In this document: piece by piece, positions 7,450 through 55,423 of the stretch
Layout: each line of letters opens with the position of its first letter
Numbering within the stretch: the stretch's first letter is position 1
NCBI GenBank assembly: GCA_004123355.1
Contig: SCHM01000003.1
Coordinates: 7,211,058 to 7,275,057, forward strand
DNA length: 64,000 nt
Direction: 5' to 3'
Source: Amphirosellinia nigrospora
Lineage: Eukaryota > Ascomycota > Sordariomycetes > Xylariales > Xylariaceae
The notes under the pieces: generated by a model
What the model saw: the letters and a program-made list of their open reading frames with translations, nothing else
The model's database searches: none
Told to the model about the DNA's origin: nothing
Position numbers and translations under genes: made by a program

Positions 7450-7665
7450 AAGGTAGGCTTAGCTGTGGGTACTAACATATGCAAGTTAATAGAGCCGTTG
7501 AGTATATTCAAGATGAAGTAAAAGAGAAACCTAGAGCTTGGAGGGCCTAGGAAGTGCATATGTATAGTAGCGTATATTATGCAAGTTGGCATACTGATGT
7601 GTCATGAAACAATACGTGTTACTGCCTAAAGTTCTCGCTAATGACTGGATAGTAACTGTGTACTA
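7450..7665. other. Unmutated single-copy spacer between E0 and E1
   Basis: This roughly 216-bp stretch has normal composition between two RIP-saturated elements. It ends in TACTA, the target duplication of E1, so it is host DNA that once joined the sequence now at 55424. A 64-codon reverse frame here (7592-7398) runs into the LTR and is not a credible gene. Confidence 0.7.
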
Positions 7666-7811
7666 TGCTAAAGTAATACTAGGTCAAGGAGTCACCACAG
7701 GTACTATACAAGGGCACAAGCATCCATTGTATATATAAACAGGTTATTTTACTTACTTTATTATATAGTTAAATAGCTAAATAGTACGCTTATATATTTT
7801 TTATTTTAGTA
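7666..7811 (+). repeat. 5' LTR of E1
   Basis: This is a 146-bp repeat starting TGCTAAAGTAATACT. Its outer half is unmutated and its inner half is AT-rich. It is collinear with 55273-55418. Confidence 0.92.
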
Positions 7812-9059
7812 GGTTATAAGCCCGGAAATTTTTTTACTAAATAACTAGCTAAATATTTTATTTATAATTTTTAAATTAATTAATTAAAATATAAGCTTAA
7901 GCCTAAATATATATTAAACCGAAAATAATAAAATATTAAATATAATATAAATAAATATAAATTCCGCGCTAAAAAAAAAACTATTTTATTATTATTTTAT
8001 TTATTATATAATTAAAAATAATTATAATAAAAAACTTAATTAATATAAATAAAAAAAATAAAAAATAAATAATTTATTTATTATTATTTAAAAATTATTT
8101 ACTATTAATAATTTTTATATTTAGTAAAAAAAATCTAATTATAATAAAAATATAATAATTTATAAAAAAAAACAAAAAAAACTTTTTTATATAAATTTAT
8201 TTAAAAAAATTAATAATTATTAATTTAACTTTAATAATATAAATATATTATTTATATTTAATAGCCGAAAAATTTTTAGTTTTTAAATTAAAATATTAAA
8301 ACTAGCTATTATAAACTTTAATAAAAATTAAAAAAAAATTAGTTTTTTTAATAGTTTAAGTTTTAAAAAAACTAATATTTTTAAAAATTTATAACTATTA
8401 AAGTTAAATTTTCTATAATTATTAATTTTTTAAATTTATAGTAATTTTTTTTAATATTTAGTTTATATATTATTAATATATTTATTAAATAAAAAATAAC
8501 AATTTAATTATAACTATTATAAATAACTTTAGTATAATAAACGCTAATATTATTAAAATATTTAAAGTTAATATAAATATTATAAAAATTAAATCTTTTA
8601 TAAAACTAAAAAATTAAAAAAACTATTATAAATAATATTTTAATATAATAATTATATTAAAAACTTATAACGTTTATAAATTTATTTTAAATAAATTATT
8701 AAAAAAAAAACAAATATTTTTAATATTAAAAATAAAATAAAAAACTTTTTAATAAAAAAATATAATTAATAAAAAATAGTTTAAACTATACGTTAAACTT
8801 ATATTTTATATATATATAATAATTTTAAAATATTCGATTAAATAAATAAAAAATTTAATAAAAAAATAATTATTATTTTTTTTTTAAAAAAATAACTTAT
8901 TAAAACTAAATAATTATAAAAAATTTTTTAACGGCGTATAAACTAATAAATAAAATTAAAACGATTTAAAAAAACTACGCTAAAATTAAGCTAAAATATA
9001 TTTTTTAATAATTATTTTATAGTTTATTTTATTTATAGTTTTAAAAAAAAAAAAAAAAA

Positions 9060-9252
9060 TATTATAGGTTATAAAATAAAGCTTAATTTAAGGAAAAAAA
9101 TTTATTATTAAATTTACGTAGTAGATCTAATAATAAATTCTTTAACTAGTAGTATGCTAGCTGTTTATTTAAATATAGTATTATTAAATAGTTTTTTTTT
9201 ACGCTTTACATAAAGAAGCTACTAGTAATATAAACTTTTAAAAGCTTTATTA
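9060..9252. repeat. Left LTR of E2
   Basis: It is collinear with 47627-47818; a shared stretch is AATAAATTCTTTAACTAGTA. It is RIP-mutated throughout. Confidence 0.82.
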
Positions 9253-10269
9253 AAAATATTAAAGTATAAAAAAATTTTGCTAACTTTAGTAAATTAATTT
9301 AGCTAAGCTATATTATAATTATAGTTTTTTTTATATAATATTAAATAATATTTTAGTTTATTTTATTTTTTTTATTATTTTATAAGTAGCTATAACCGAA
9401 AGCTTTAATAAAAAGCAAGAAATTTATTTATAAACGTATTAATAATAATAAAAATATCGGCAAAAATTAATACTAAAATAAAAACTTTAGTTATTTTATA
9501 TAGCTTTTTATAAAAGCGCTTACTAGGTTTAAATATAAATAATAGTTTTATAAAAAGCTGCTTTTTTTTTTTTTTAATAATATAAAATAAAGCTATATTT
9601 AAACTAATATTTATTAATAAGTTTTATAAGTACTAAAAATAATATATTAAATATTAATAGTTATGTTTATATTTTTTTTTTTTTATTTAATTAAATAATC
9701 GAAGTTATTTTTTTTTCGGTTAAAATAATATTTAAATATAATTTTTATTTTATAAATATTATTTTTTATTATTATTAAAAATATTAGTTAGCTTTAATAA
9801 ACTTTAATAATAATATTATTTGTTTAAAAAAGTTTTTATTTATTTTTATATAGTTATAACTATAATAAAATAATAAAATATATATAATAATATTTAAAAA
9901 AATTTAATTTATAAGCTAAATTACCGATTTTACGTTTAATAATTTAAAGTTTAATAATTATATTATAAATATTTTTTAAAAATTATATTAAATAAATAAT
10001 AACTATTATATAAATAAAAAAACTTTATTATTTAGTTTAAATTTTAATATTTAATATTTATTATTAAAATATTTTTGCTATAATAATAGTAAAATTTATA
10101 GCTAATTTAATTTTATTGTAAGTAATTATATAAAGATTTTATATTTTTCGAAATTATATATATTTATTTAGCCCGTAAATATATTAAAAAAGCTAAAAAG
10201 TTTAAACTTAAATAATTATTTATATAAAATAAATTATATAGTTTATAAAAATATAAAATTAAAATTTAT

Positions 10270-10407
10270 TGTTACGATTAGCGTTCTTAGCCATTACATA
10301 GTTTATGTTAACCTTTTGTAAAAAAGATATGGAATACTAAAGTAAAGGCTTAGTATTTTATTAGTAGCTATATTAGGATCTGTTCGTATAGTGCACTACT
10401 ATAACTT
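10270..10407 (+). repeat. Left terminal repeat of the TRIM-like element
   Basis: It starts TGTTACGATTAGCG and is a direct repeat of 10610-10742 with substitutions of both RIP and other types. The 3' limit is approximate. Confidence 0.6.
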
Positions 10408-13700: not shown

Positions 13701-13860
13701 CTAATTTTTATAAACTAATATATATATTATTATTATAATTTTTATAAATTTATTTTAGTTTAATTTTTTATTTATTTAATTAAAATATTTATAATATTAA
13801 TAATTAAAATAATTTTAAAAATTTTTATATTTATTATAATATTTATTATATTTTTATATA

Positions 13861-15794
13861 CTAAAGCCCTTAAGTTAGGGGCAAAAAAGCTTAAGTTTTT
13901 AAAATTTATAAGTATATTTTAGTAAGTTAAGGTTACCGGTTATATCGGCGTAGTTTTTCCGAACAAATTACTTTTAATATGTTTTATTATTTTGCTTTAA
14001 TTTATAAAAGCTTTTTTTCTTATATAACTACATTAATAATATTTACTTGCTTTATCGATAATAATAATATATATTAAAGCTATATTATCGTTTTATAAAT
14101 AAACTATAAAATTTATTCGATTTTTTTGCTATAATAATAATAATATATTCTAATAAAATAATAACTAGTAAATAATATTTAGTTTTTTTTATAACAATTT
14201 TTTTATATATTATTATTATATAATAAAATTATATTTTTTATTTGTATTTTTTTTTTAAACTTTTGCTAAATATAAAAATACTATTTTTTTTAAAAAATTA
14301 ATCTTTTTTTTTTATCTTTCGATATTTTAAATAAATAATATAATAAAAATTCAATAATAATAAAATAAACATATTTTATACGTTTTTAAATATAATATAT
14401 ATTTAGTAACCTTTTTTCGAATATAAAATAAAAATAACGATTACTTTTTATTAAGTAAAATAACTTAATAAATAACTAATATTTTAAATAGTTTATACTA
14501 TTTTATTAGTTTATTGTTTATATATAAAGTTAAAAATAAAATAGCAGCTTTTAAAACCTAATTTGTTATTATATTTAATAAGCTAGTATTAAAATCGTTA
14601 AATTCGGAATATATTTATAAATAACAGCCTATATAAAATATTAGTAAAAAAAACTATTTAGCAGTTTATAAAATATTATATAATATAGCTTAGCCTTTAT
14701 ATAACTTTATATTTATTTTTTAATAATATCGTATAAAACTTTTATAAATAGTTTCTATTAATATAAGCTATATTTTATTTAATTTTAACAAGCTTATTAT
14801 CGATAGTTTTATTTGTTATATTTTTATAATATATACTATAATATTAAACGTTAGTTTTTTCGAAAAAAAAATTCCCGGTTATAAATATAACTTTATAACT
14901 TAAAAATTACTTATAAATAATCTTTCCTATAGTTTTTAAAATATTTATATTATAAACTAACTATAAATAATCGATTATAATAAACCGTATAATAATAAAT
15001 AAATAAAAATAAAATATAATAAACTATTAATTAATATATAATTATTTAGCTATTATTTAGTTATAACGTTTAATATATATAATAATCAAATTATTATTTA
15101 ATAAAAGCAATATTTAAAATAATAATAATAATAAAATAAATAAATATTTATATTATAATAAAATAGTTAAAACTAAAAATATAGTTAGCGGTTAAAGTTT
15201 ATAAATAAATAAATAATATTTATAAATAAAAAAAATATACGAAAAAAAATAATAATAAATAAAAAAAAATAAATATTTACTAGTAATTATACTAAAAACG
15301 ATAAAATTACTTACTATTAAAAAAAATAAACTCGGTTAAAAACAATACTAATAAGCCTAAATAAATCCTTAAAAAAGCTTTAAAAAATAAAATAAAATAT
15401 AAATAAAACAAAACTTCGGAATAAAATAAATTAATAAAGCTTAAATAGCTAATTAATAATTAGCAATTAGTAATAATAAAGTTGTAAGTTCTAAATCTAT
15501 ATTATTTTTAATATTAAAATATATAAATAGTTATAAATATAAATAAATATTTTCTAAAAAATTACCCGAATTATTAGTATTAAATAAAAATAAAAAACGT
15601 AAAGCATAAAACCTTAAATATTAAATTATACGTTAAGCATAAAAAATAGAAAAAAGCCTTAAATAATAAAGTAGTTCTTAATTAAAATAAAAGAATTTCC
15701 TATTTAAAATATAAAGCCGGATAAAAAAATTTTTTTATCGACAAAAAAAAACCTTCCTTTTACTTAGTTGTACCTCCCTTATAAAACTCAAGCA
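13861..15794 (-). mobile_element. R element, inverted copy inside E2
   Basis: The reverse complement of this stretch starts TGCTTGAGTTTTATAAGGGA and ends with the hairpin GCCCCTAACTTAAGGGC plus TTTAG, as in the R copies at 51.7 and 53.6 kb. Both ends and at least part of the interior align with them. It is longer (about 1.93 kb), so it has extra or different interior sequence. It keeps several GC-bearing patches. No coding frame is visible, so it is presumably non-autonomous. Confidence 0.7.
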
Positions 15795-16818
15795 TTATTA
15801 TAAAATAAAAGTTATAATTAATAAATAATAGTTTATTTTAATTTATAAATATATACTTTTATTAGCTATAATAGTTATAATATATATATTAATAATTTTT
15901 TATATATATTTATAACTATAAATTAAAACTTTAAAATTAATAATAAAATTATTAAATTATAAAAAATAATATATTTTTAAAATAATCGATAAAAATTTTA
16001 TAAAAATAAAAAAATTATTAATAATTAGTATATTTAATTATAGTTTTTTTATTTATAACTTAATTTTTTTTTTATATTTTATAATTTTAAGCCGTTTATT
16101 ATTATTAACTTTTTAAATAAAAAACTTAAATTTAGCTTAACGTATTATTTTTACGCGCTTATTTTTAATAATAATTATTTAATTTTTATATTTTTTTATT
16201 ATATATTTTAATATATTAAAATATTTATTATTAATTATAATTTTATTTATATTTAAATTAATATATTTTTATATTTTAACTAGTTAATAAAACGTATATA
16301 TAAAAACAAAATATATATAGTTTAAATATAAAGCTTTATTATACGCGTTTATATTTAACGCTTTAAATATAAATATTTTTAATTTAAAAATTTTATTTAA
16401 TTTATTTTATATAAATAATAAATTATTATTAAAATATTTTATTTTTTAACTGTATTTTTTTTCGCTAATTTATATTAGTTTAAATATTAAAAAAGTTTAT
16501 TTTATAAAATAATATTTAAATATAATATTTATATTATATCGTTTAAAAATAATAAATAAAAAAATATTAATACGTGCTATATATTTAATAAAATATATAG
16601 CTTATATTTTTATATATATAAAATAAAATATCGGATAATTTATATTTTTTATAATATTTATAATAAATAAAAGCTAAACTAAATATATAATAAAAATATT
16701 ATTATTATAATATTTTTTATTATATTATATTTAGATTTTTTTTATTTAAATATATATTATTAGTTTAATATATATTATAATAATTATTACGTTTTTTTAT
16801 TATAATAACGTTTATAAT

Positions 16819-17077
16819 TATTATAATAAATATAATATAAGTAAAAAGTTTAAACATTTAATTTATTTTATATTAAAGCTAATATTTTATTTAAAAAAAA
16901 GAAAAAAAAATACTAGTATATTAATTTATAAATAATAATTATTATTATAAATATATGCTTTATATTATTAATATTATTACTTTATACTATTTAGCTTAAT
17001 ATTGCTATATATTCTTTATAAAGTAATTATAATATAGCTATAGCTTTAAATAAATAGGTTAAAAAAATAAAGCTATA
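16819..17077. repeat. Left LTR of E6
   Basis: This is a 259-bp repeat identical in length to 38305-38563; shared blocks include TAAAAAGTTTAAA and CTATAATATAGCTATAGC. Confidence 0.88.
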
Positions 17078-20000
17078 ATAACTTTTTTTTTTTAAAAAAG
17101 ATTTAACTTAAGTTTATTAGTATATATAAAGCTTTAAAACTATAGGTTTATTTACTTTATATATAAAGAATTAAATAATAAGTTTTTAGAATTAATATTT
17201 TTAAGCTAAAAAGTTTTTTTTAGTTTTTAATAACTATAAATTTATAAAGCTTTTTATATTTCTATTATATTATTAACTATTTAAATAATCGATTATATAA
17301 TAATTATATTGTTTAATATATTTTATTAATTATTATATAAGTTTTATATTTTTTTATATTTTTTATACGTTTATTTTATAAAGTAGTTTTATTATTATTT
17401 ATATTTGCTATAAATTTGTTTTTTTTATAGTTTTTAGCTATTTATTTAATTATAATAGTAAACTTATTATTTTTAAGTTCGTTTTATAGTATTTTTTTAG
17501 TTTTTTTATAAAATTTTTTAAATTTATAGCTAAATATTATTTATTATTATATTTTTAGTTTTTTATATTATTTTATAATATAGCTTATAATAATAAATAT
17601 ATAAAAAAAAATATTTTTAATTTTTTATTTTTTTTTTTTAAAACTAAAGTTTATTATTTCGTTTTTAGTTATTTATATTTTTAGCTTAATAAAAAATTAT
17701 TCGAATATTTTATAATTAATTAATATAAAATTATTTGCTTTTACGCTAGTTATTAAATAATTATAGCTAAAAAATATTAAAATTATTTAGTTATACTTTT
17801 TTAATTTTATAATAATTTTTTTTATAAATAGTTTAATTTATTATTAAAATAATTAGTTTATTTATTTTTTTATATAATATATAAATATAGTTTTTAATAG
17901 TAAATTAAAGTTTTTTTTATTTATTAGTTTAAATAATTATTTTTTACTATGTTTTTTTATATTTTATTTAATAATTTTAATATATTTTTATATACGTTTA
18001 TAAATATTTAAGTTTTTTTTTAGTTTAATTTTTTTTAGTTAAATAATTAATTAGTTTTTTAGTTTTAACTTTTAATTAAATATTATTTTTATTAATTAGT
18101 TTATAAAGATTTTTTTAGCGTTAAATTATTAAAAAACTTATAAAATAAAAATATTTATTATATTTAAAATAAATAGCGTTTTTAATTAATTTTTCTATAA
18201 ATAGTTTATAAAAAGCTATAGTTTTTAGTTTATTTATTATATATAATTTTAATTTATTTAGTAGTTTGTTTATATTTAATAAAAAAAAAGTTTAGTTTTA
18301 TTTTATATATTTTAAAGAATTTATTTATAAAATTAATTATAAATTATAATTTTTAATTATTTATAAATAATTTTAGCTATTTAAAAACTTAATAAAAGTT
18401 TTAATAATATATTTTAGCTACTTTTTTAGTAGTAATTTACTTTTATACGTAATTATTTAAAAAATTTTAATTAATTAATTAATAATATAAAAATTATATT
18501 ATTTTTATATTTATTTTAAAAAAACTTTAAAATTAATAATAAATATTATTAAAAATTTTTAAGATTTTTAATAATATTAGCTTTTTAAAAGTTTTATTAC
18601 GTAATATTTTAAATAGCTAATAATAATAGTTATAATATAATGTTTAATATTATTATATAGCTTTAATTATTAATATTTTTATAATATTATATAATACGTT
18701 TTATTTTATTTAAATATGTTATTATTAATCGGTTATATATTTTTTTAATATATATATTTTTAAATTATTAGTTTTTAAACTATAAGCTTATTTTTATATA
18801 AAAATAAATTATTTAGTATTATTTAGTTAAATATATATTAATATAAATTTAAAGCTAATATTTATTAAAACTAATATTTATATAATTAACGGCTAAAATA
18901 ACGTTAGTTAGTATTATTTTTAATAATAATATTAGTTAAAGTTTTTAAAATATCAATTATTATTATTTTTAATAGCTATATTTATAATAAGTTTAAATAT
19001 AGCTATTATTTATTATTTATTTATATTTATTTTTATATTTTATATTTTTATAAAATTAAAATAAAATATTAGCTATAATATTTTTTAATTTTAGCTAATA
19101 AATAATTATAAAATTATATTATATAATTAGTTTAATTTATTTAGTTTATTTTAAGCTTAAAACTTTTTTTATATTAAAATATTTAATACGGCATAATTAA
19201 TAATTATAATAAAGGTTTTTATTTTTAAAGTTTTATAAGCTTAGCTTTTTAATATAAAAAACTTTTAATTATTATTAATATTTTTTTATTAAATATATTA
19301 TAATTTAATTTTTTATTTTATAATATTTTTAAATAAAAAACTATTAGTTTTTAAAAGTTATTAAGTTTATTATATTATAATAATATATTTATAATAATAT
19401 TATTTAATAAGTTAGTTTTTATTTAGGTTTTAAATTTATATAAAAATATTAAAAAATAAAAATAAAAATTAACGTTTTTTTTAATACGTTAAAAACTTAT
19501 TAATATTTTTTATTATATTAAGTTTGTTTTTATTATAATTAATTATTTAATAGCTTAATAATTTATCCGTACTTTTTAATAAACGTTTATAAAAATTATA
19601 AATTTAAAAAAAAATTAAATTTTTTTTAATATAGTTTATTATATTTAATTAGCGGTTATTAATAATTAATTTATTTTATTTTAATTAATTTTTAATATTA
19701 TAATATTTATAATAAAGCTTAAAAATTTCGTTCGAATAACTAAAAATTCATACTTTTTTAAAATTAGTTTATAGTTTAGCTTTTTAAAATAAGCTAATAT
19801 TTTATTTATATATATTTATATTTTAATTTATTATTAAAATAAATTAAAATATTATTAATATATACTATATAAAAATATTAAATATTTTTTTAATATATTA
19901 TTAATAAAACGTTAAAATATAAATAAACTATTAATAAATTTAAATAATAATATTTTAAACTAATAAATATTATATTAAATATAAAAAACTATTAGTTATT

Positions 20001-21734
20001 TATTATTTTTAATAATAAAATATAATAAAAAACTTAATATATATTAATTTTAATATAACTTTAGTTTTAATTAATTAAAATAACGTTTTTTTATTAATAA
20101 AAAAAATACTAATTTTTTTAAATTATATTTTTTAATTTTTAATAGTTTAATAAAATTATAATAATTTATTATTTTTTATAATAAATAATATAAATATAAT
20201 TTAATATATTTATTAATTTTATAAAGTTTTTAAATAAGTTTTTTTATATATATTTCCATATATTTTAGTTTTATTTAATATATTTTATATATATTATAGC
20301 TTAAAAATATTAGTTTTTTTTATAATAATTTATAGTTTATTTTTAATTGCTAAAAAAAAGTTTATTTAAAGTTATTTTATTAAAAACGTTTAAATATTTA
20401 TAATATTATTTAAATATTTCGCAATAAGTTTTTTTATATAATTTTATTTATTTTTAAATAATAATTTTTTTTTTTCCGATTAATTATTTTTCGATTTTAT
20501 ATAAAAATATAATATTATATTACTATTATTATTTAACGTAAAATTACTATAATAATAAGCGCGTTAATAGTAATAATTTATATTAATTTTTATTTATATT
20601 AATTAATAATATTTTTTTATAATATAAAGTTTATATTTGTTTTTAATAACTTTTTTAGTTAGTTTATTTATAATTTTTATATAAAATAAATTTTATATAT
20701 AATAATTATAATTATTTTTATTTAAAGCTTTTATTATATAATTAACTTTTTATTATATACGGTTATTTTTTAAATTAAAATTAGTTTATAAAAATTATAA
20801 AATTATAATAAATATTTTAAAATAATAAGCTTTTAATAAAAGCTTTTTTAAAAGTTTTTTAGCTTTTTATTTTAATTTTATAATTTATTATATAGCTATA
20901 CTATTATTTTAAATATAAATTTTATATATTTTTTAGTTTTTAGCTTTTAAAAATATATTATAATAAATTTTTATTTATTTTATTAATTTATAAAGTATTT
21001 TTTTTAAGTTTATTTTTAATAATAATAATAGTTATAGTTTTAAAATAATATTAATAGTTTTTTCTATATAACGTTTTTAATTTAAATAATTATTATAATA
21101 AGTTTATTTTTAAGTTTTATTATTTATTTTAACGATTTATATTTTATTAATAATTAAAGTTTTAAATTAAGTTTTTTATTTTATTTATAAATATATTTTT
21201 TAAATAATATTTAAGTTTTTAATTAAAAAAAAATAGCAATTTTTTTCGGCGGTTATTTATTAATATATTTAATAATTAAAAAACTTTTTCCGATAATTAA
21301 TTATATTTTATATTTATTATTAAAAACAACGTATTAAATATAATACGTTTTTAAACTTAAAAATATAATTAAAAAGCTAAGTTTATAATTTAAGTTATTT
21401 TTTTATTATATTTAATAATTATATTAAACTAAAACTTTATTATTTTTTTAGCTTTAAATTTTATAATTTATATTATAAAGTTATATTTATTAATAAATAT
21501 ACGTTTGTTTTTATATTAAATAAAGCTAATATAAATAATATAAGTTTATTATTATTATTATATATTTTATAAATAAAAGGTTTTTTTTTAAAAGCTTTTT
21601 AAAAAGTTATATAGAATTTTTTTATATTTTTTTATTTTTAACGCTAATATTTTAATTATTTTAAAAAAAAAACTAATTATTTTAAACGTTATTTTTTAGC
21701 TATTTATTTAAATAAATATTTTTATAACTTTTAT

Positions 21735-22018
21735 TATTAAGTAGCTAAAAAGTACAATATTATACGTAATAATAGGTAAAATAAATATTTATATATATTG
21801 ATTTATTTTTTTTAACTATTTATATAAAAGCTAGGCTTTTATATAAAGAATTTTTTATGCAAAAAAAATTCTACTATAATATATTATATAACTAAATTAA
21901 ACAAATATATTAGCTTAATTTTATTATATAAACAACTAATATTATAATTAATAATTAGCTATTATACGTAGTTAATATTAATATAATTTTATATATAAAT
22001 AATATTATAATTATAATA
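21735..22018. repeat. Left LTR of E3
   Basis: This 284-bp repeat starts TATTAAGTAGCTAAA and ends ATAATTATAATA. It is homologous to the three other LTRs of this family at 24.5, 31.6 and 36.1 kb. Confidence 0.9.
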
Positions 22019-38563: not shown

Positions 38564-38565
38564 AT

Positions 38566-40557: not shown

Positions 40558-43500
40558 TTTATAAATTATTTAAAATATTATAAAATATTAAAATTGTTTT
40601 TATAATATTTTTTAATTAAACTAAATAATTAATTTAATTTAAAAATATTAAAATGTTTTTTAAAAAAAAACTAAAATAATAAACACGTATAGTTATACGT
40701 ATTAAAGTTTTATTAATATTTCGGACTTATTTATTTTAAATATTTTAATAAGCTTTTTATAATAAAACTTTAGTAAATAATAAAAAAATATATTTATTTT
40801 AGCTTTTTTAATTATATAAAAACTATAATAACAAGCTATAAAAACTAACTATTTTTAATTAATTTAATATAATATTTTATAGTACTATTAATAATTATAT
40901 ATTTAAAAAAAAAATTCGATATAAATATTATTAATTTTAATCGAATAGTTTAATATTTAGTTAATAATTATATAAAACTATAAATAAAAAACGCTAAGTT
41001 TAGCTTTTATTTTAAACTAATAATATATTATAATAAAATAATTTAATTTAGCTTTAATAAAAATATAAACTAAACTAATATAAATAATATATATAAAACT
41101 TTATTATTATTTTCTAAAAATAAAAATATATACTTTTTTAATAATAGCTTATTATTATTTTATTATTAATTTATATATATTTATTAAAAAATTAAATAAA
41201 TAAAATAAAGTTTTATTTAATTAAGCAAAAAAATAAAATAAAATTATTATTTTTTATAATAAAATATATATTATATTAATATATATTATTAATATTTTTT
41301 AATTTATAATTAAAAATAATTTTAGCTAATAATAAACTAATTAGTAAACTATTAATCGATTATTAAATAAACTATAAAAATAATTAAATAATATAACTAT
41401 ATTTAAAATAATTTAAATATTTTAAATTAATAAATAGTTAATTTATTAAATTATTATAAAATAATTTTTATTTTATTAAATAATAAAAAAATAACTAACG
41501 TATAATTAAAATATTAATATTTATTTTTTATAATAATATAATTAAATATAAATTTAAGTTTAAAATATAAATTCAAACTATATAAAATCGTTTTAAATTT
41601 AATATTAATTAGTTTTATAATAATATAGCTAAAATAATTAATATTAAAACTTATATTAAAAGCTATATAGCTAAAAATTTTTTTTTTATTTTTATTTAAT
41701 TATTTTAATATATTTATTAATTTAAAAGCTATTTTAAATATTTTAAAAAAATCTATATTAATATTAATTATAATAAAAAATTAAAACTAATTTTTAATTA
41801 TTAGTTTTAATTAATATATATTAGTTAAATTTTTTAAGTTTTAAATTATTTTTATTTATTTATTTAATAAAACTAAATTTAATAAAATTAAATAAAAAAA
41901 AAATTTAAAAATAAACTATTTTTTTAATTAATAATTAAAATTATATTAAAATATTTAAAAAAAAATATTAATTTTAATATTTATATAAAATATTATTTTT
42001 AAATAGTTTATTATTTAATAATAATTAATTATAAACGAAATAAAACTTATAAAAAAAAACATAAAAATTTATTATTATAATTTTTATTTTTTTTTTTATT
42101 TTTATTTAAATAATTTTTTATTTTATTTTAAAATTAAATAATAATAATAATAATTTTATTTAATTATTTAAACTTAACGTTAATAAAATATAATAATTAA
42201 TTTTTAATAATAAATATTTTAATTATTATTAATAAAAATATATTTCGAAAAAATATTTTTTAAAAAATTAAACTTTAACGAATAAAAAAGCTTAAATTAT
42301 TATTATTTTAACTATATATAATATATTAAATATTAAGCTAGCTAATATAAAAAAATAAGCTTATAATAAATATAAAAAAAAAAAATAATTTTAAAAAAAA
42401 TAGCTTTTTTTTAAAAAAATATTTTTAAAAAATATTATTAATTATAAAATAAATTTAATAAAAAAATATTTAAATAAAAAACCTTTATTATATATTTATA
42501 TTTTATATAATAATAGATTTTTTTAATTATAAATAATTTTTTTAAAAATATAAAAAAAATATATATATAAATATAAACTAATAATTTATAAAAAAAATTA
42601 TTAAACTATTTAATTTTATTATTATTATAAACTTTTTTATTAAAAAAGTTATAAAATATAATAATAAAAATAAAAAAAATATTAATTAAGTTTTTTTATT
42701 ATTATTAAAAATATATAAAAAAACTTTTAAAAATAAACTTATAATTATTATTAATTTAATTTATAATATTATTTTAAATAAACTATAATTTAAATATTAT
42801 AATATTTTATTAAACTATTAATAAAACTATTTAATATTTTTATTTTAATTATTTTTTAATTATAATATAAAATATTATTTAATAATAAATAAAATAAATA
42901 TATAGCTATAATATTTAATTTATTAATTTAACGCTAATTAATAAAACTATAATTTTAAAATTAAAAAAATATAACGTTAATAATAATAAAAAAAAACAAA
43001 ATAATATTTAAAAAATATAAAACTAAAAATATTTATTTTAAAATATAATAATTTAATATAAAAAGATTTTAATAAAATAAAATAAATAATATTTAATTAG
43101 TTTTTATTAGAACTTATTTTTAAAAACATAAACATATTTTTTTATAAAAAATATAATTTTAATTTTATTTAAAAGTTTAATAAAAAAATCTTTATCGTAT
43201 AAAATAAAATAATATTAATTAATATAAAAAAAAACTAATAATTAAAATATTTAGTTTAAATATAATTATTTTTAATATAATAATAAAAAAAAACTAAATA
43301 AAAAACGTTTATATTATTAATATTAATAAAATTAATAAAATAATTAAAAAATTAAAAAAAAATAAAAACAATTTTTAGAAAAAAAAATAAAAAGTTAAAA
43401 TAAAAAAAGTAAAAAAAAATATTTAAAAAATATTAAAACTTAATATATTTTTAGCTAAATAAACTTTAATATATATTATTATATTATTTATAAATAAACT

Positions 43501-46500
43501 ATAAAATAAAGTTTATTAAAATAAATTTAAAATTAATTTAAGCTATAATTTTATATAAAATATTATTAAATAAACTAAAAGCTATATAAGAATTTTTAGT
43601 CGAAAATTTATATAAAAGTTTTATTAAGCTTAATAATATTTTATATAATATATTTATTTTATTTATAAAAAAATAAATAATAAGTTTCGTTTTTATATAA
43701 ATTATTATAAGCTAAATAAAATTATAAAAAAAACTAATATTTATTTTTTTTATTAAAAAAACTTTAGCTTATATTATTAAAGCAAAAATCTTTATTTAAT
43801 TTAATATATAATAAATATTTAATTATATTTATATATTATTTAAGAATAAAAATTATATAACGTTTTATATAAAATATAGTATATATTAATTATTAATATT
43901 ATTATTTAGTTTTATTAATAGATTTTTAATATTTTAATAATATATTAATAAATATATTAATTTTTTAAATAACTTTTATAACGTTTATATAAATAACGTT
44001 ATTATTTATTCGGAAATAATAAAAAAATATATATTTATATATATTATATATTAAAATAATTAATTTAAGCTAAATTATAAATTAATTTAAAAAAATCTAA
44101 ATTTTATATTATTAAAACTAAGTTTTTAAGCTATATTATTAATATTAAAAAAATTTAAATAAACTTTATTAAAATTAATATTATATTAAAATAAAAAACT
44201 TTTATATTAATTAAAAACATATAATTTTTTTTAAAATTTTATAACTTTTATTAAAATTTTATTAATGTTTAAAGTTACGTTATAACGCTTTTAAACCGAT
44301 TAATACGAAAAAGTATACTTTTCGAATAAATTAAAAATATAAAAAATTATTTTATTAGTTTAAAAAAGCTTTAGTAAAATATTTTTTATTAAAATATTTT
44401 AATTATAACTTATTAATAAAAATTAAAACTAATTTATTTAATAACGTTAGCTTTAGCGTATTATTATAACTATATAATAAAATTTAATATTTATAATATA
44501 TTTTTTAAAAATATTTTATAACGTTAAATTAAACTATAATATTTATAATAAAAAATTATTAATAATTATGCTATATTTTAAAAAATAAAAACCCGAATTA
44601 ATTAGTAGCTATAATAAGCTTTTTTTAGTATTTATTAATAATTAAATATTAAAGTTTTTTAGTAAAAATAATATTTTAATTTAAAATAAGCTAAATAAAT
44701 TAACTTTTTTTTAAAATATAATTTTTTAATATTATATTACTTTAATAAAAATAATATATTAGCTAACGCTTTATTATAAAATAAAAAAACCTAACAATAT
44801 AAAAAGCTAAAAAAAAAATATAATATTATTTTATAATATTTTAGCTAGTAAATAATATATAAACTAATTTTTATATAAATAAAGTTATATTAAATAAACT
44901 TTATTAAAATATATAATAAATTAAATATTTTATAAAATTATAATTAATCGACGAATTTTTTAAAAAAAACCGTAAAAAATATAAGTATAAAAATTTTACT
45001 AAATTAAATAAAAAAAATAACTAAAAACTAAAAATTAAAAATAAATTAACTATTTTTACGGACGTTTAATTATTTTTAATTTTTATATTTATAAATATAT
45101 TTTATTAAAAAAATATTATAAAATATTTATTATATATTTTAGCAAAAATAAAACATATAAACTTATTATTAAATATAATAGCTAAAACTAAAAAAATTAT
45201 AATTATTATATAATAAACTATATAAAATATAAACTTATTAAAATATTTAAAAATAAAACTTTTAATAAACTTATATTTTTTTTAATATTTAATATATAGC
45301 GCTATTTTATTATTAATTTTAAATAAATATTTAAAAAAATAAAATATAATAATAACTAGTTATAATAAACTTTAAACAAATAAACTTAAACTATACTTTA
45401 TATTATAAAAATAACTATAAAAAACGCTATTAAAATATATTATAAAAAACTTTTTTAAATTTTTAAAATATTTATAACTATAACTTTAAACCGAAAATTT
45501 AGTTTATTTTTATTTTTAACAAACTATATAAGCTAATAAATATAAAATATATACTAATTACTATAAATATTATAAAACTATAAAATAAATAAAAATTATA
45601 AATAAATATATTAACTAAAAATTATAATTATATAAACTATTATTAAAACAATTAATTTAAACATATATTTATTATAAATTATATATAAACTTTAATTTTT
45701 TATATTTAATAAAACTATTATTTTATAAAATAAAAATAAATTTTTAATATTATTTAATTTCGATTAAAAAAATCGGACCGCAAATATAAAACTATAAAAG
45801 TTTTTAAAAAAAAAAAACGATTCGAAAAATATATAAAAAAAATAAAAAAAATAGCATAATTTATTAAATTAGCTAAAAAAAACCTATAATATATTTAAAA
45901 ACGTATAATTAATAAGCTAATAAAAATTAATATAAACTTAACTTTAATATAAAAAATTATATATTAATTTTAAAAAAAAAACAGTTTTAAAAATAAACTA
46001 TTTATCGAATAAGCTAAACTTTTTTATAATATAATAAAAATTTAAAATATAAAAAAAACAAAATATTTTATATTAAATATTTTTATAACTTAGAAAATAT
46101 TAAACGTTATTATATAAATTAACTATAAAAATATTTAAATAATTTATTATTAAATTAAAAAGCAAAAAACTTAAAAAAAAAAAAATAAAACTAAAAAAAA
46201 AAAATTTACTATTAAAAAATATAAACATTTTAACTTTATTATTAAAAATTATAATATTAAATAAATTAAAAAAATTAAAACTTTAATAATATAATATTTG
46301 CAAAAAATTTTAAAAATAGTATAAAAATACTAAAAAACTTTTATAATATAAACTTTAATTTAGTTAAACTTGTAAAATTGTAAATATAGCTAAAAATAGC
46401 GCAAAAAAACAAATTTAATAAGCTATATTAAATAATAATAAAGCTATAGCATAAAAAAAAAAATAACGCGAAAAAAAAACGCATAAAATAAAAAAATATA

Positions 46501-46688
46501 TAAATACTAATATTTAAATATTATATTAAATAAAAAAACTTTAAATAACGTATAAAAAAACTAATATAATAACTTAACGGTATAAAAGCTTTATAAAAAA
46601 TTATATTAATAAAAACCTAAAATTTTTTTTTTGCTAAAAAGTAGTTATAACTTTAACCCCGGTTAAATTATTTTTTTTTTAAAAAAAA

Positions 46689-46982
46689 TAATTATAAATT
46701 TACAAGCTTTAATAATTATACTTTATTATTAGCCATAGCACCTATAATTTTACTTATAATAACTACTATTTATAATAAATATATAATTGCTATTTATAAT
46801 AAATATAGTTATAATAAATAAAAACAAGCATTAATAATAAATATAGCTATTTATATAAATATTTAAATAGCTGCTTATACTATAAATTTAAACTTTTTTT
46901 TTTTTATTTTATTTATAAATTTTATATATAATATATTATATATGCTAAAGCTTTGTTTTTTTAAATGTGTGAAGCGTAACTA
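46689..46982 (+). repeat. 3' LTR of E5
   Basis: This is a 294-bp repeat sharing TTATTATTAGCCATAGCAC and AAGCGTAACTA with the 5' LTR. It is less mutated at its outer end (AATGTGTGAAGCG). Confidence 0.87.
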
Positions 46983-47626
46983 TATTATAATAATAATATT
47001 TATTTTAATAAATTATTACGTTAAAAATTAAAAAAATAACTTTAAATAAAAGTTTTCTAATAATAAATTTAACGTTTAATTTAATAAATAACTAAATATT
47101 TAAAAAAAATATTATTATTATAAATAATAACTTAAAAATAAAATAAACTATATATAAATAAAAATAAAATAAAATATATATAATTTATAACTATATTTTA
47201 ATAATAAAATTAATATATTTATAAACTTTAATAGCGAATTAAAACGTTTAAAAATTTTATAATAAAATTAAAATATTTAAAACGATTAATTAATAAGAAT
47301 TTATAACGTTTACGATTTATAATAATTTTAGCTACGCTATAAAAACTAATATATTTAAAATATAAAAATGTTTTATTAAGTTTTTTTAAAGCTAAATAAC
47401 TAGTTTATTTAAAAGCTTTATAAAAAATATAAAAATAAAAATATAAAATAAATTAACGCTAAAGCGTAATATTTGCTTTAATTAATAAATACGTATAAAT
47501 TATATATATTAATTACTATTAAAAAAATTAATATTTTTAACTTTAAAAGATTTAAAAATAAATAGTTTTTAATATAGTTTAATATTTATAATAAAACTAC
47601 GTAATAAAATATTATTTTAAAAAAAA

Positions 47627-47818
47627 TATTATAAATTATAAAATAAAGCTTAATTTAAAAAAAAAAATCTATTATTAAATCTTCGCAGTAAATCTAATAA
47701 TAAATTCTTTAACTAGTATATTAGCTGTTTATTTAAATATAAGTATTGCTAAATAGCTTCCCCCTGCGCTCCGTGCAAAGAAACCATTAGTAACATAAAC
47801 CCTTTAAAGGCTTTATTA
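47627..47818. repeat. Right LTR of E2
   Basis: It matches 9060-9252. A patch at about 47758-47815 keeps original GC-rich sequence (CTTCCCCCTGCGCTCC) where the left LTR is fully mutated. Confidence 0.82.
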
Positions 47819-50800
47819 AAGAATTTAAAACTTAAGCCTAAGTTTTTTAAAATATAATAAAACTAAAAATATTATAACTAGCTAACGTAGTTTAAACTAT
47901 AAAAACTAAAAAAACTTATTAAAGCGATTATATTAATTATTTAAACTTAACATTATAGCTATAATAGCTAAAACTAATATTATAAAAAAAAAAAAATAGA
48001 AATTAATAATTATTTTACTTATAAATAAAAAATTTATTTTTATAAAAAAGCTTAAATATTTATATTATAAAAAAATTAAATATATAAAATTAAATATTAA
48101 AATCTATATTTAAAGTTATAAAAAAAGCAAGCAAAAAAAAAAAATATAACAAAAAAATAACAAGCGTAAAAAAAAAAAGCTTTATTAATAATATATTTAA
48201 AACTAGAAAATAATAATAACGATTTAAAAAATATTATTTAAATTATTAATTTAAACTACTATAAATATTATTATAAAAACTTTAATAACTATTTTATTTA
48301 ATAATAATATTATTTATTTATATAGTTTTAATATTTTAATTTAAAAAACTTTAAATTTATTATTTAATTATTTTTTATTATAGCTAAAATTAATAGTTTT
48401 TTAAAAACTTATAAAATATTATTTTTTATAATAAGTTTAAATATTAAATTTAAACTACGCTTAATATATATAAAGTAAAAATAAACTAATTAATTATAAA
48501 AATTTATTTTAGAAAAAATTATTATTATAAATATTAAAAAAATAAAAATATTTATAATAAAATAAAAAATCTAATTAAAAAATATATTATAAAAAATAAC
48601 TATATTAAAATTATTTTTACTAACGTTTTATATATATTAAAATTAAAAGTTAATTTTATTTTAATTATTTTATTTTTTAATAAAAAAGCTTTAATATTTT
48701 TAATAAAAAATAATATTATATTTAATTTTTTTTTTTAAAAATATTATAATTTAAATAATATAATTCGGGAACTTATTTATATTAAAAATAACCTAAGCAG
48801 CGCTACTAGCTTTAATAGTATATATAATAAATTTATTTATAAAACTAATATAAATAAATAAATTATTTTAGCGAAAAATTATTATTAAAGTTAAAAAAAA
48901 TTATATAAAAAATAAATAACGCTTAAAGTTATTATATTTATAAACTTTATATTTTTAAATAAATATATAAAAAACTATATAAAAAAAACTATTTAAAAAA
49001 AATATTTAAAAAAGGTTATATTTATTAGCGTTTACGGATTTTTTTATATTAAAAATTATAAAAAAAAAAATATTAGTTTATTTAAATCGATATATATAAT
49101 AAGCTAAGTTTATTAAAACTTATAAAAAATAAAACTAATATATAAATATTATTAATAAATTTATTAATAACTTTATTAATTTCGAATTATAAAAGTAAAA
49201 ATACTATATTATATATATAAATAAAACAAACGAATTCATTTTAAAAAACGCTAATAAATAAACTATATAAAAAAAAAAAATTTAAATAATACTAATAAAA
49301 CAATATAAAAATAATAGTATAGCTAAAAGTTTTAATATTATAATATATAAAAAACTTTTATTTATAATAATAAAAAATATTATTAATTCGAAATATTAAC
49401 TTAAAATTATAATAACTATTAATTATTTATATAATAAAAGCTTATATAGCGTATTTAATATTATACTTTTTAAAAAAACCTACGGTTAAAAACTTAATAT
49501 TAAACTATAATATTTATTTTTAAATATTAAATAAAAAAACTAAATCTTAAATTAATATTAAAAATCTTAATTAAATATAATAATAATTTTATTTATAAAA
49601 TAATAATTAATAATAATAAAGTTATTAAAACTACGAAATAAAAATATATATTTTAATATTAAATAAAACGTTATAATAACTAGTAAAATTTATAATTATT
49701 TAATATATTATAAATAATTTTTATTAATATTTAAATAAATAACGCGGCTAATAAAGTTATAAAAATAAAAAAACTTATATTTTTATTAATAAAATAAAAG
49801 CGCTAAAATATTATTATTTCTAGCTAAAATATATAATAAATTTAATTATAAACTTTTTACTATATTTTTTAAATAAAATTATATTATTTATTAAAAAACT
49901 ACCGGATTTTAAAATTATTAATAAAATTTTTAGTAAACTTAAACTTAAATATTTATTTAAAAGCTTTTAATTTTTATTTTTTAATTTAGTTTAAATATTA
50001 TATATTATATTAGCTTTAGTAGTTATACTAAATTATAAAATAATAAAATTAAACTTTTTTATAAAAAAAAGCAAACAAAACTTAAACAAAAAAAAATAGT
50101 TAAAAAAAATAAAAGTTAAATTTAAATTTTTAGTTAAAAATAAAACTTAAACGTTAATAATATATATTATAAATATATACGTATTAAAAAAAAAAAAATA
50201 TATAAACTTAAATATAGCTTTAATAATAAAATTACTCGCTATAAAATAAAATAAATAGTTTAAAAATCGAACAAATTAAAAACGTTAATTATTTTAAAAC
50301 GTTTATTTTAATTATTAAACTAATAAGCTATAAAATTTTATTCGTTATAATAGCGGTTTAAAATTTAAAAATAAAATAAATAAACGTAAAAATAACGTTT
50401 TTTTATAAAAAAATAAAAAAAATATTCATATTAAATAACTATATAAATTTAAAAAGTATAAATAAGTTTATAAGTTAAAAAAAGCTTTATATAGCTTAAA
50501 ATAAGCTTTAAAAGTTTAGTTTAAAATATTATTTAAGTTTTTTATTATATTAAATTATAAGCCGATTAACGCTAATTATATATATTTATAAACAATAAAA
50601 TAAAAATTTTTATTAAAGTTTATATTAATAATTTATTTATAATAAAAAAAAATAAGCTAAAAATTATAATATTAAAATAGTTTTAAATAAAAAATTCTAA
50701 ATAATAAACCTAGGTTTATATTAATATTATTTAAATATTTATATATAATATAATAAAACAAATAAAACTATATATTTTAATTAATAAAAATATATCGATA

Positions 50801-51650
50801 AAATATTTATATAATATAAATTAAAAAACTATAAACTAATAAATATTTTTATAATAATAATAAAGCTATAAAAAACTAAGCTAAAATAAATATATTTAAA
50901 AAGCAAAAAATAAAAATATTAATCTAATATAAAATTATTAATATTTAATAATAAAAACTTGGCTAAATATTATATATATAATATTAATAATTAATTATTA
51001 CGCTTTAAACTTTATATTTATTTATAAAATAACGGTTAAATAAATTTTTAAATATTTATTAAACATAAAAAATTACTATTTTATTTTTTAAAAACTATTA
51101 TAGCTTTTAATAAGCTAAACTAATATAAACTAAAAAAAAATCTAAATATATAAAAATTAACTTTAAAATATATTTTTAACCTTAGTAGTAATATAATTAG
51201 CTAATTATTAAAATTATAGCAAATTATAATATTATTAATATATAAAACTAAATATTAAAATATAACTAATATAATTAAAAAAATAATATAGCTTTTATAA
51301 TTATATAGTAAAAATAACATTAGTTATAAAAAAAACAAAAAAGCAGTAAAAATACTAAAAAAACTTTATATAATAATAATTTATAATAATAACTAAAGTT
51401 TATTATATTTATAAAAAACTTAATATAATATAATAAAAATAAATATATAAATATTTAAATATATTTTATTTATAAATAAACCGAGCAAAAAATAATATAG
51501 CTAAAATAACTTTATATAAAAATATAATAATAAATAAATTAATAAAACTACTTTTTAAAAATATATTTAAAAAATTTAAAAAAGCGCTAAAACTAAAAAT
51601 AATCCCCGGTAATTAAGCTTAACAATTTTTATAACTTAATAATTTAAAAA

Positions 51651-53270
51651 TATTTAAATTTTATAAAAAAAGTATAACTAAATAAAAAGAAAGTTTTTTT
51701 ATCGATAAAAAAATTTTTTATTTTTTATATCTTAAATAAAAAATTTTTTTACCCGAATTAAAAACTTTTTTATTTTTATTTACTATTATATATACTTAGT
51801 TTTTAGCATTTATTTTTTATTATATAAATAACTATAAATTTAATAAAATAATTTAAAATTAAATATTTATATTAAAATAATAATATAATATAAATAAATT
51901 ATAAAATTTTATTTTTAATTTTTTTTTTATTATAAGTTATATTAAATTTAATTTTATATTAAATTTAATTATTTAATAATTATATATTTTATTAAACTTA
52001 ATTATTTAATAGTTATTATTATATTAAATATAATTATTTAATATTATTTATTTAATTATGCTTATAATTATTTTATTTTTTTATTTTTTTAATTTAATAT
52101 TAATTTAAATATTTATTATTTTTAAGTTATAAACTAATATTATTATCGTAAACTTTGCTTAAATATAATTTTTATTAAATTATTTTTTAAAAAAACTATA
52201 ATTATTATAAAATTAACTATTATATTAGTATAATAAATATAATAATATTTTTTATAAAATATTTATTTATAACTTTTTTTGTTTATTTTTTTATTTTTTA
52301 TTATAATATTTTAAACATAGTTTTTAAGTTTTTAAAGATTTTAAAGCTTTAAATCGATTATAATAAATATATTTTTTAAATCTTTAAGTTTTTTTTTTTT
52401 AAACGTTTAGCTAGTTTATAAAGTTTTTTTTAAACTTATTAATAAGCTTAAGTTTTTTTAAAAAGTTTTTTTTTTTAAACGTTTTAATTAATTTATAAAA
52501 TTTTTTTCGGATTTATTAGCAAGTTTAAGCTTTTTTTAAAAAGTTTTTTTTTTTTAAACGTTTTAACTAACTTATAAAGTTTTTTTTAAATTTATTAGCA
52601 AGCTTAAGCTTTTTTTTAAAAAAATAAAAATTTAATATATTATAAAAATTAATATATTTTATAATAACGCTATTATTTAAAATATAAAATTCGTAATTAT
52701 ATTTAAAATTAAAAATAGCTTATAGTTATATTTAAAATTAAAAATAGTTTATAGTTATATTTAAAATTTAAAATAATAACTTATATTTATTAGAAAACTT
52801 TTTTAATTTTATTTGGGTTAAAAATCGTTTTAAAAATCTTAATATTATAATAAATCTTTTTTATTTAAAATAAAAATTAATTATTCGCTATAATATTTAA
52901 TTCTTTAATTTTACTTTATAGCTTAAAATCGTAATTTAATTATAAAATAATAATATAACTTTAGCGTATATTATTACTATTAATAAAACAAATATATAAA
53001 AAATACTATATATTAACGCTTATATTTATAAGCAAATTTATTACTACTATTAACTAAACGGCCGAATATTTTTATAATATAATTATATAGTTACGTAAAA
53101 AAACAAAATATTATAATTAATAAATTAAAATAAAATAATAAGTTCTACTATATATAACTTATTAAAAAAAAGCGAACTAATATAATTAGCAACTATAACT
53201 TATTTATTAACCTAAATACGTAGTTCTTAAAAACTTAAGCATTTTTGCCCTTAAATTAAAAGGCCTTTAA
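51651..53270 (+). mobile_element. R element copy 1 (in E1)
   Basis: This copy is about 1.62 kb and collinear with 53562-55069, with mostly RIP-type differences. It starts TATTTAAATTTTATA where copy 2 has TGCTTAAGTTTTATA, and ends at the decayed hairpin GCCCTTAAATTAAAAGGC plus CTTTAA. It exceeds copy 2 by about 110 bp, which one extra 75-bp and one extra 29-bp tandem unit explain. There is no coding frame. R1 and R2 are head to tail, separated by 291 bp of E1 sequence. Confidence 0.75.
52390..52620 (+). repeat. Minisatellite in R copy 1, three units of about 75 bp
   Basis: The units carry TTTAAACGTTTTAGCTAG-like, TTATAAAG and ATTAGCAAGCTTAAGC-like blocks in order. There are three units here against two in R copy 2. 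Confidence 0.8.
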
Positions 53271-53561
53271 TATATAAAAAAAACCTTAAAAAAAAAATAC
53301 TTTTAAAATTTTATAAAAGCTTATTAAATAAAAATAAATTATATAAATTTAAAAATTAAATTATTAAAAAAACGTTACTAAAATTATATAATATAAAAAC
53401 TTAATATATATAATTTTAATAACTTTATAACTATTTAATTTAATAACTATAAAAACTACTATTTTTTTATTATTTAAAGCAAAAAAAAAAAATTACGCTA
53501 AATATTAAAAAACTATACTTTATATTTAATTATAACGTTAATAAAAACAAACGATAAATTT

Positions 53562-55069
53562 TGCTTAAGTTTTATAAAGGAGGTATAACTAAGTAAAAAA
53601 AAGGTTTTTTTATTAATAAAAAAACTTTTTATTTTTTATATTTTAAATAGGAAATTTTTTACCCGAATTAAAAACCCCCCTATTTTTACTTACTATTATA
53701 TATACTTGGTTTTTAGCATTTATTTTTTATTATATAAATAACTATAAATTTAATAAAATAATTTAAAGTTAAATATTATATTAAAAGTAATAGTATAATA
53801 TAAATAAATTATAAAGTTTTATTTTTAATTTTTTTTTGCTATAAGTTATATTAAATTTAATTTTATACTAAATTTAATTATTTAATAGTTATATATTCTA
53901 TTAAACCCGATTATTTAATAATTATACGTTATATTAAACGTAATTATTTAATATTATTTATTTAATTATATTTATAGTTATTTTATTTTTTTATTTTTTT
54001 AATTTAATATTAATTTAAATATTTATTATTTTCGGGTTATAAACTAATATTACTATTATAAACTTTACTTAAATATAATTTTTATTAAGCTACTTTTTAA
54101 AAAAATTATAGTTGTTATAAAATTAGCCGTTATATTAGCGTAATAAATATAGCAGCATTTTTTACGGGGTGTTTGTTTATAATTTTTTTTATTTATTTTT
54201 TATTTTTTATTATAATATTTTAAGCGTAGTTTTTAAGTTTTTAAAGATTTTAAAGCTTTAAATCGATCGTAATAAACGCGTTTTTTAGGTTTTTAAGTTC
54301 TTTTTTTTAAACGTTTTAGCTAGCTTATAAGGTTTTTTTTAAATTTATTAGCAAGCTCGGGCTTTTTTCGAAAGGTTTTTTTTTTAAACGTTTTAGCTAG
54401 CTTATAAGGTTTTTTTCGGACTTATTAGCAAGCTTAAGCTTTTTTCGAAAAAAATAAAGGTTTAATACGTTATAAAAATTAGTAACTTTATAATAGCGCC
54501 GTTATTTAAAATATAAAATTCGTAGTTATATTTAAAATTAAAAATAGTTTATAGTTATATTTAAAATTTAAAATAATAACTTATGCTTATTAAAAACTTT
54601 TTTAATTTTACCCGGTTAAAAATTGTTTTAAAGATTTTAATATTGCGGTAAGTTTTTTTTACTTAAAGTAAGAATTAGTTATTTGCTATAATATTTAACT
54701 TTTTAATTTTGTTTTATAGCTTAAAATCGTAGTCTAATTATAAAGCGATAATATAACTTTAGCGTATATTGCTACTATTAATAAAGCGGATATATAAAGG
54801 ATATTATATACTAACGTTTATATTTATAGGTAAATTTATTATTATTATTAATTAAACAGCCGAATGTTTTTATAACGTAGTTATATAGTTATATAAGAAA
54901 ACAAGATATTACGGTTAATAAATTAAAATAGAATAGTAGGTTTTTACTATACGTAACTTATTAAAAAAGAGCGAACAAACATAACCGGTAATTATAACTT
55001 ATTTACTAACCTAAATACGTGGTTCCTAAAAACTTAAGCATTTTTGCCCCTAAATTAAGGGGCTTTTAG
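53562..55069 (+). mobile_element. R element copy 2 (in E1), Helitron-like ends
   Basis: This is the best-preserved R copy (about 1.51 kb). The 12-mer TGCTTAAGTTTT at the left end (53562-53573) occurs inverted at 55029-55040. It is not at the right terminus but just before the hairpin GCCCC/GGGGC (55046-55063), after which the element ends in TTTTAG with T next. A terminal-left, subterminal-right inverted repeat with a 3' hairpin is the arrangement described for non-canonical (Helitron2-type) Helitrons, including fungal ones. No Rep/helicase frame is present, so it would be non-autonomous. The class assignment is an inference; the repeat itself is certain. Confidence 0.7.
54299..54452 (+). repeat. 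Minisatellite in R copy 2, two units of about 75 bp
   Basis: Two units contain TAAACGTTTTAGCTAGC, TTATAAGG and ATTAGCAAGCT blocks. A neighbouring 29-bp tandem repeat (TAGTTTATAGTTATATTT-type) near 54520-54580 also has one unit fewer than in copy 1 (52690-52780). Confidence 0.8.
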
Positions 55070-55272
55070 TTAAAATATTTAATTAATAAAATAAATAATT
55101 TAATTATAACTAATATAGCTAACTAGTATAAAAACTATAAAAACTATAAAATATAAAAATTATAAAAGTTTTTTATTTTTATAAATTTATAACTTATAAT
55201 ATAAATCCTTAGTTAATTAGTTAATAAAAACAAATAAATTATTTAAACTTATAATATTTTTTTAAATAAAAA

Positions 55273-55418
55273 TATTAAAATAATACTAAATTAAAAAATT
55301 ACTACAAGTACTATATAAAGGCACAAGCATCTATCGTATATATAAACAGGTCATCCTACCTACTTTATTATATAGTCAAATAGCTGAATAGTACGCTCGT
55401 ATACCTTCCATTTTAGCA
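55273..55418 (+). repeat. 3' LTR of E1
   Basis: This is a 146-bp repeat whose inner half is RIP-mutated and whose outer half is intact, ending CCATTTTAGCA before the TACTA duplication. It marks the right edge of the AT-rich block. Confidence 0.92.
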
Positions 55419-55423
55419 TACTA

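Follow-up and report, generated by a model that had tools for sequence, protein, structure and literature searches.

The stretch of DNA analysed here (the window) comprises 64,000 nucleotides of contig SCHM01000003.1 of Amphirosellinia nigrospora (C5:7211058-7275057; assembly of 48.1 Mb in 11 contigs). The ends of the window have 45-49% guanine plus cytosine (GC) per kilobase, and positions 2001-55272 between them have 8.8%. A gene-free 48 kb of this AT-rich desert is occupied by long terminal repeat (LTR) retrotransposons, named E1 to E6, which lie inside one another next to a HET-domain gene and have lost most of their C and G to repeat-induced point mutation (RIP). The data support the nest E1 > E2 > E6 > E3 > E4, with E5 as a second insertion in E2.

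E1 is bounded by the target duplication TACTA (7661-7665 and 55419-55423), which is exact and stands directly at the TG...CA LTR ends. Its left (5') LTR (7666-7811, + strand, 146 bp) reads TG...TA, is followed by the primer-site-like GGTTATAAGCCCGG and shares its start with copies elsewhere; the right (3') LTR (55273-55418, + strand) ends in ...TTTTAGCA and was aligned to the left one. The E2 LTRs lie at 9052-9256 and 47619-47822 (+ strand). Both were placed by self-comparison; the left one (left end between 9052 and 9060, right end 9249-9256) also has copies elsewhere. E6 has LTRs at 16819-17078, likewise with copies elsewhere, and at 38305-38564 (right end uncertain by a few bases), with ATAAT at 16814-16818 and again after the right LTR; it was read on the - strand because of a poly-T run just inside its left LTR. 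E3 (- strand) was recognised from its LTR pair (21731-22020 and 36074-36365) and the duplication TTTAT (21726-21730 and 36366-36370). Within it lies E4 (24534-31865, - strand, 7332 bp), with LTRs at 24534-24816 and 31579-31865 and GCTAA at 24529-24533 and 31866-31870. E5 (40261-46984, + strand) has LTRs at 40261-40558 and 46689-46984. By position, E3 is in E6, E6 and E5 are in E2, and E2 is in E1. After deduction of the insertions, 5.9 (E1), 8.3 (E2), 7.1 (E6), 7.3 (E3), 7.3 (E4) and 6.7 kb (E5) are left; these are ordinary element sizes, which supports the nest. A separate element with an RVT_1 region, E0 (~1804-7455, + strand; LTRs about 1804-2016 and 7245-7455), lies left of E1, and with it the AT-rich stretch starts at ~1.9 kb.

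Seven LTR pairs were recovered in a self-comparison of the window under strict scoring, with raw blast scores of 107 (E0), 111 (E1), 149 (E2), 177 (E4), 290 (E6), 300 (E3) and 305 (E5). As a control, the desert was shuffled twenty times with a second-order Markov model, and the peak scores were 54-76 (68 in one earlier shuffle). All six pairs proposed in the first-pass annotation, which was made from the letters of the window, are thus above the shuffled controls, and the E0 pair was added as a seventh. Permissive-scoring blastn was discarded, as base composition made the whole desert align to itself at 60% identity. For end-to-end alignment a scoring that disfavours transversions was used. 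The pairs aligned over their full length, a check named in that annotation, and differed nearly exclusively by transitions (E0 52, E1 29, E2 31, E6 21, E3 29, E4 40, E5 35); summed over all seven, there are 237 transitions, 4 transversions and 47 gap columns in 1657 aligned bases. In the E1 pair 117 of 146 bases are identical, with 29 transitions and no transversion. By the ratio of 237 to 4 the desert looks young. Both LTRs of each pair carry changes, as expected if RIP struck the two independently.

Exact 5-bp duplications had been claimed for four elements, and all of them were found at LTR-defined ends (TACTA for E1, ATAAT for E6, TTTAT for E3, GCTAA for E4). By simulation, a single 5-bp match arises at fixed ends with a probability of 1.7%; four matches in seven elements have a chance of 3e-6 with fixed ends and of 0.004 with each end free to slide one base. 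A search for exact duplications at the remaining elements gave seven matches for E2 and four for E5, all at inconsistent offsets, as chance allows, and the ends of E0 gave a near match at best, with no exact duplication at unambiguous ends. Long repeats of 91% AT are hard to assemble and the assembly was taken as given, so that the nest could in principle reflect a collapsed or wrongly joined assembly. This is very improbable in view of the exact duplications at four junction pairs and of the 21-52 RIP-type changes within each LTR pair, which show that one sequence was not placed twice.

E3 without E4 was aligned end to end with E4. The joint was seamless, and 6568 of 7136 aligned bases were identical, with 526 transitions, 42 transversions and 358 gap columns; judged by this alignment, E3 and E4 belong to one family. 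E4 carries its own copy of the stretch into which it is inserted in E3 (27283-27350, located by alignment). This copy reads AAATTTAGTTAAACTATAT, and the split form in E3 reads AAATTTAGCTAA...GCTAAACTATAT. The uninterrupted copy is a built-in, natural empty-site control for the E4 insertion. In each DNA search against the genome, 40 of 251-1250 candidates were scored. With a query across the E3-E4 junction (1169 candidates), the full match was the window only; 22 of the 39 other scored matches end at most 10 bases from the junction, 17 extend 26-67 bases further, and none spans it. This bears on the reading of the E3/E4 stretch (21.7-36.4 kb) as a tandem array formed by unequal LTR recombination or duplication. 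Two tandem-looking direct repeats in the self-comparison (21738-24533 with 24537-27319, and 27313-31865 with 31864-36363) speak for such an array, but insertion of one sibling into another produces the same picture. The units of an array should run from LTR to LTR; instead, the outer element consists of two complementary parts divided at 2.8 kb, the inner one is exactly flanked by GCTAA, and E4 has the site unsplit. Together with the unspanned junction, this makes the array very improbable, and insertion of E4 into E3 is preferred.

Another self-insertion of this family was seen at locus L111 (C1:7638200-7638700), 22 bases from window site 24534 in the frame of the element and in the same orientation. 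Among the 40 main LTR matches, only two pairs of the E3/4 family are less than 7 kb apart (spacings of ~2.80 and 2.83 kb). From these two cases, an insertion hotspot for E3/4 self-insertion is possible. GC contents of 9.7 (E1), 9.2 (E2), 7.9 (E6), 5.7 (E3) and 8.8% (E4) show no trend by which deeper elements would be less RIPed.

Copies elsewhere in the genome were used for a further look at the element ends. The query for the E1 LTR included 66 flank bases (LTR start at 67). Apart from the query and five short inverted matches, there are 38 main matches, of which 27 begin at 65-67; for E5, 31 of 39 start at 56-65 (LTR start 62). Ends were looser for E6, where 18 of 38 other matches start at 53-63 (LTR start 60) and the rest elsewhere, and for E2, where 18 of 39 start at 52-57, within a run of A. 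The E3/4 query begins at the LTR start, so its outer end was read from the identity among fetched loci instead. Across the LTR start, mean pairwise identity (40 bases on the outer side compared with 40 on the inner side) rises from 0.43 to 0.92 for E1 (19 loci), from 0.59 to 0.76 for E3/4 (11 loci), from 0.54 to 0.84 for E6 (9 loci) and from 0.59 to 0.84 for E5 (9 loci). Repeats elsewhere with other ends had been named beforehand as an outcome that would speak against the nest; copies of E1, E3/4, E5 and E6 lose similarity at the same LTR start as in the window. Nine of the 19 other E1-family loci fetched are solo-type, eight of these nine with exact 5-bp duplications and two with identical flanks. 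The claimed order E1/E2/E6/E3/E4 holds in its LTR pairs, ends and succession of insertions.

Coding remnants were sought by a RIP-directional comparison, which favours C-to-T and G-to-A changes from an un-RIPed locus to the window. A heavily RIPed copia reverse-transcriptase (RVT_2) region at 50060-51036 (+ strand) in E1 scored 241 against the un-RIPed locus L002 (shuffled control 70), and on this match E1 is assigned to the copia elements. RVT_1 regions were found in E5 (43565-44229, + strand; score 536, control 45) and E0 (4601-5255; 521, control 58). A weaker reverse-transcriptase-like match, 163 against locus L099 (control 35), lies in E6 (19669-20279, - strand). E5 scored 468 against reversed E6, compared with 29-57 for other, unrelated element pairs, and E6 is accordingly a relative of E5 in reverse orientation; for both elements, purine runs, base skew and reverse-transcriptase matches concur on the orientation. 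When 12 RVT_1 stretches were compared with the desert, clear matches were obtained with L099 (E5) and with L101, L105 and L107 (E0), and a weak one in E5 with L102 (96, control 52). The other seven remained at or slightly above control; six of these fall between 7.2 and 8.0 kb, where GC is higher, and the seventh at 10.5 kb. Copia loci compared with E2 scored 45-95 against 33-44 for the control, but on both strands, which was read as composition. Five stop-free RVT_1 matches in the genome score equally (C1:5499608, C1:12638343, C4:2326918, C4:7647740 and C4:7655988). L101, the one of these that was compared, belongs to the E0 family, so that RIPed and un-RIPed copies coexist in one family. The two small contigs C9 (1.33 Mb) and C11 (0.25 Mb) make up ~3% of the genome but account for 18 of 32 RVT_1 and 7 of 16 RVT_2 matches (some of them pieces of one element); the GC content of most loci fetched there is 47-57%, as though RIP had spared them.

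In copies of the E1 family the LTR is followed by GGTTATGAGCCCGG-like letters, presumably similar to the complement of the anticodon arm of the initiator tRNA. With its RVT_2 reverse transcriptase and short LTRs, E1 resembles Ty1/copia elements of filamentous ascomycetes; fungal GalEa elements have a conserved hairpin site in place of these letters (PMC5445492).

The same comparisons gave a measure of RIP strength. Over 664 aligned bases, E5 differs from an un-RIPed relative by 293 RIP-type changes, 1 reverse transition and 3 transversions, with a loss of 87% of C/G and 75 of 75 CpA. For E0 (654 aligned bases), 280 RIP-type changes, 1 reverse transition and 6 transversions were counted, and 84% of C/G and 79 of 80 CpA are lost. 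E1 could be compared with a distant relative (939 aligned bases: 322 RIP-type, 14 reverse, 159 transversions; 82% of C/G and 79 of 87 CpA lost). In E5 and E0 the loss in contexts other than CpA is 71-88%. With RIP-type changes ignored, identity is 99.4% for E5, 98.9% for E0 and 81.6% for E1. Judged by these alignments, RIP is near saturation. Since E5 and E0 are ~90% AT while their other divergence is ~1%, a sequence as AT-rich as this need not be old. The RIP signal fades out within the outermost LTRs: the left LTR of E1 is intact on its left side and the right LTR on its right side. Between E0 and E1 lies an island of 204 bases (7457-7660) that has 40% GC and shows no loss of CpA (CA+TG 28, AC+GT 27). 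As it keeps this composition between two RIP-saturated elements, RIP hardly leaks into unique DNA. A PF00145 (cytosine methyltransferase) profile gave five matches, candidates for RID or DIM-2, at three places in the genome.

Three further repeats, T1 to T3, lie in the nest. T1 (51653-53271, + strand) and T2 (53562-55071, + strand), of 1.5-1.6 kb, are inside E1 and were delimited by terminal features. T3 (13860-15793, - strand) is inside E2; both T2 ends are present on the other strand (103 and 104 for the two ends, against no more than 37 in three shuffled controls), and the T2 middle is not shared. For the T1/T2 family, 38 other long matches were among the 40 scored of 1250 candidates. The copies have the constant ends GCTTAAG...CTAG. 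In T1, T2 and nine outside copies, the left end is formed by TGCTTAAGTTTT, which is RIPed in T1 and in L073, and its complement stands ~30 bases before the right end, with a GCCCCT...AGGGGC hairpin between this complement and the right end. No target duplication was seen, by eye only. By these terminal features, T1 and T2 fit Helitron2-type elements. With Helitron2 / FoHeli of Fusarium oxysporum they share asymmetric inverted repeats of which the 3' copy lies some 20-40 bp short of the terminus, and the T copies lie between T and T, as compared with a Helentron target 'TT'; unlike FoHeli, they have other terminal letters and a 3' hairpin (PMC5148889). A head-to-tail pair of the family, ~265 bases apart like T1 and T2, was seen at C6:6217644-6221249. 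Short tandem repeats of roughly 75-78 bases occur at 52386-52621 (T1) and 54295-54450 (T2).

Right of E1 lies a gene with a HET domain (PF06985) and ankyrin repeats (55716-58850, + strand; three consecutive open stretches in one reading frame), the first in-frame Met codon of which is ~290 bases beyond the right target duplication of E1. A second HET-domain frame adjoins it (59736-60983, - strand). The first-pass annotation had the desert grow from one unique site upstream of a HET gene. The gene is real and E1 does sit in unique DNA; the whole AT-rich stretch, though, has two founders, E0 and E1. The reading of the desert as an ordered series of insertions stands; E0, T1, T2, T3 and the common family of E3 and E4 had been missed.

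On the same contig, sampled points at 7.155-7.205 and 7.280-7.290 Mb have 40-53% GC. A further AT desert starts 15-25 kb right of the window end (C5:7300000-7370000; GC 0.04-0.17 at seven of eight sampled points). This second desert, at about 7.30-7.37 Mb, and the nested clusters that PMC4522978 places mainly in putative centromeres for some fungi would suit a centromere core in which nesting follows from centromere function. Such an origin is nonetheless unlikely, given the near-normal GC at the sampled points on both sides and the presence of the same families at many places on at least 8 contigs.

The preferred reading is successive nested insertion. E1, a copia LTR retrotransposon, would have inserted in unique DNA upstream of the HET/ankyrin gene and would then have received E2, into which E6 and, separately, E5 would have inserted. 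E3 would have entered E6, and its sibling E4 would have entered E3; Helitron2-like repeats would have entered E1 (T1, T2) and E2 (T3). Each LTR insertion would have been made by an integrase with 5-bp staggered cuts, as the duplications show for four elements and as is inferred for the rest. RIP, whose enzymes are likewise inferred, then turned most C:G into T:A, fading within the outermost LTRs and leaving the flanks near normal, as base composition and the comparison with un-RIPed relatives show. The desert would thus have grown by insertion into its own elements and not by tandem duplication. We consider this account as a whole, with E1 as copia founder, successive nested insertions and subsequent RIP, highly probable.

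Several observations weigh against it. Other alignment scorings raise the LTR transversions slightly (one more in E0; nine in E4, in a longer alignment extending past the LTRs). ATAAT and TTTAT are frequent in this DNA (2.1% and 2.5% of positions), and each is weak alone. The near-match duplication claimed earlier for E2 was not confirmed: no exact one stands at consistent LTR ends, and the left end is blurred. E2 gave no protein match (RVT_1 comparison 32-67, control 52-60). In E3 and E4 no reverse transcriptase was matched above controls, and each of the 12 RVT_1 stretches compared had its best match outside them. A Pfam scan of E4 in three frames found no family and no chromodomain; only E4 was scanned, and its frames are destroyed. 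The 40 scored matches of the junction search omit L111, so that they are incomplete, and the genome-wide counts are lower bounds.

A literature search on the exact theme returned little or nothing. Nested RIPed transposon clusters have already been published, and the present nest adds a clear case to this known kind. For Mycosphaerella graminicola / Zymoseptoria tritici, PMC4522978 reports 78 nested clusters of 7.5-63 kb with verified 4-6-bp duplications; one of 47 kb has TGGAA. As here, they have LTR base elements, nested insertions and a drop in GC (PMC4522978). The same source cites such clusters from Leptosphaeria and Epichloe; those that it cites from Fusarium, Neurospora and Magnaporthe lie mainly in putative centromeres. 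In its own clusters, between 2 and 7 different elements are found, and the deepest nesting shown in its Table 4 has four levels including the base, compared with five LTR levels and nine elements in the E1 site here (E1-E6, T1-T3); the two sets of counts are only loosely comparable (PMC4522978). Large RIP-affected regions of Ascomycota are, like this one, long, GC-depleted and repeat-filled (PMC7882544). Table 2 of that source gives an average of 15.2% GC over large RIPed regions for Z. tritici and averages of 14.9-33.0% for eight species, against 8.8% here, a comparison of species averages with a single region that is not strictly like for like (PMC7882544). The five LTR levels and the GC of 8.8% would thus lie at the far end of the published cases compared.

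The flanks of the copies elsewhere differ between families. In eight of nine other E1-family loci having LTR and primer-like site, the kilobase outside the LTR is genic, with 42-55% GC. For E3/4, E5 and E6, the flanking kilobase has 3-15% GC in 29 of 29 loci fetched outside the window (11 + 9 + 9). These loci are the top matches out of 38-39 others per family and not a random sample, and one flank was measured. A succession may be proposed from these flanks, in which copia elements of the E1 family start a desert by inserting in genic DNA and, once this founder has undergone RIP, E3/E4, E5 and E6 follow, with insertions confined almost entirely to RIPed, heterochromatin-like DNA, siblings included. 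We put this forward tentatively and give it slightly less than an even chance; the flank counts are compatible with targeting and with selective survival alike.

A featureless-looking desert of 48 kb can thereby be read as a dated sequence of insertions relative to one another, and for one of them the nest contains its own empty-site control. The desert also yields a clean measure of RIP strength: in the two stretches tested, about 85% of C:G and nearly every CpA have gone, and the rest is about 99% unchanged. If the founder and follower pattern proved true on a genome-wide count, it would offer a test between retroelements being directed to heterochromatin and simply persisting in it.

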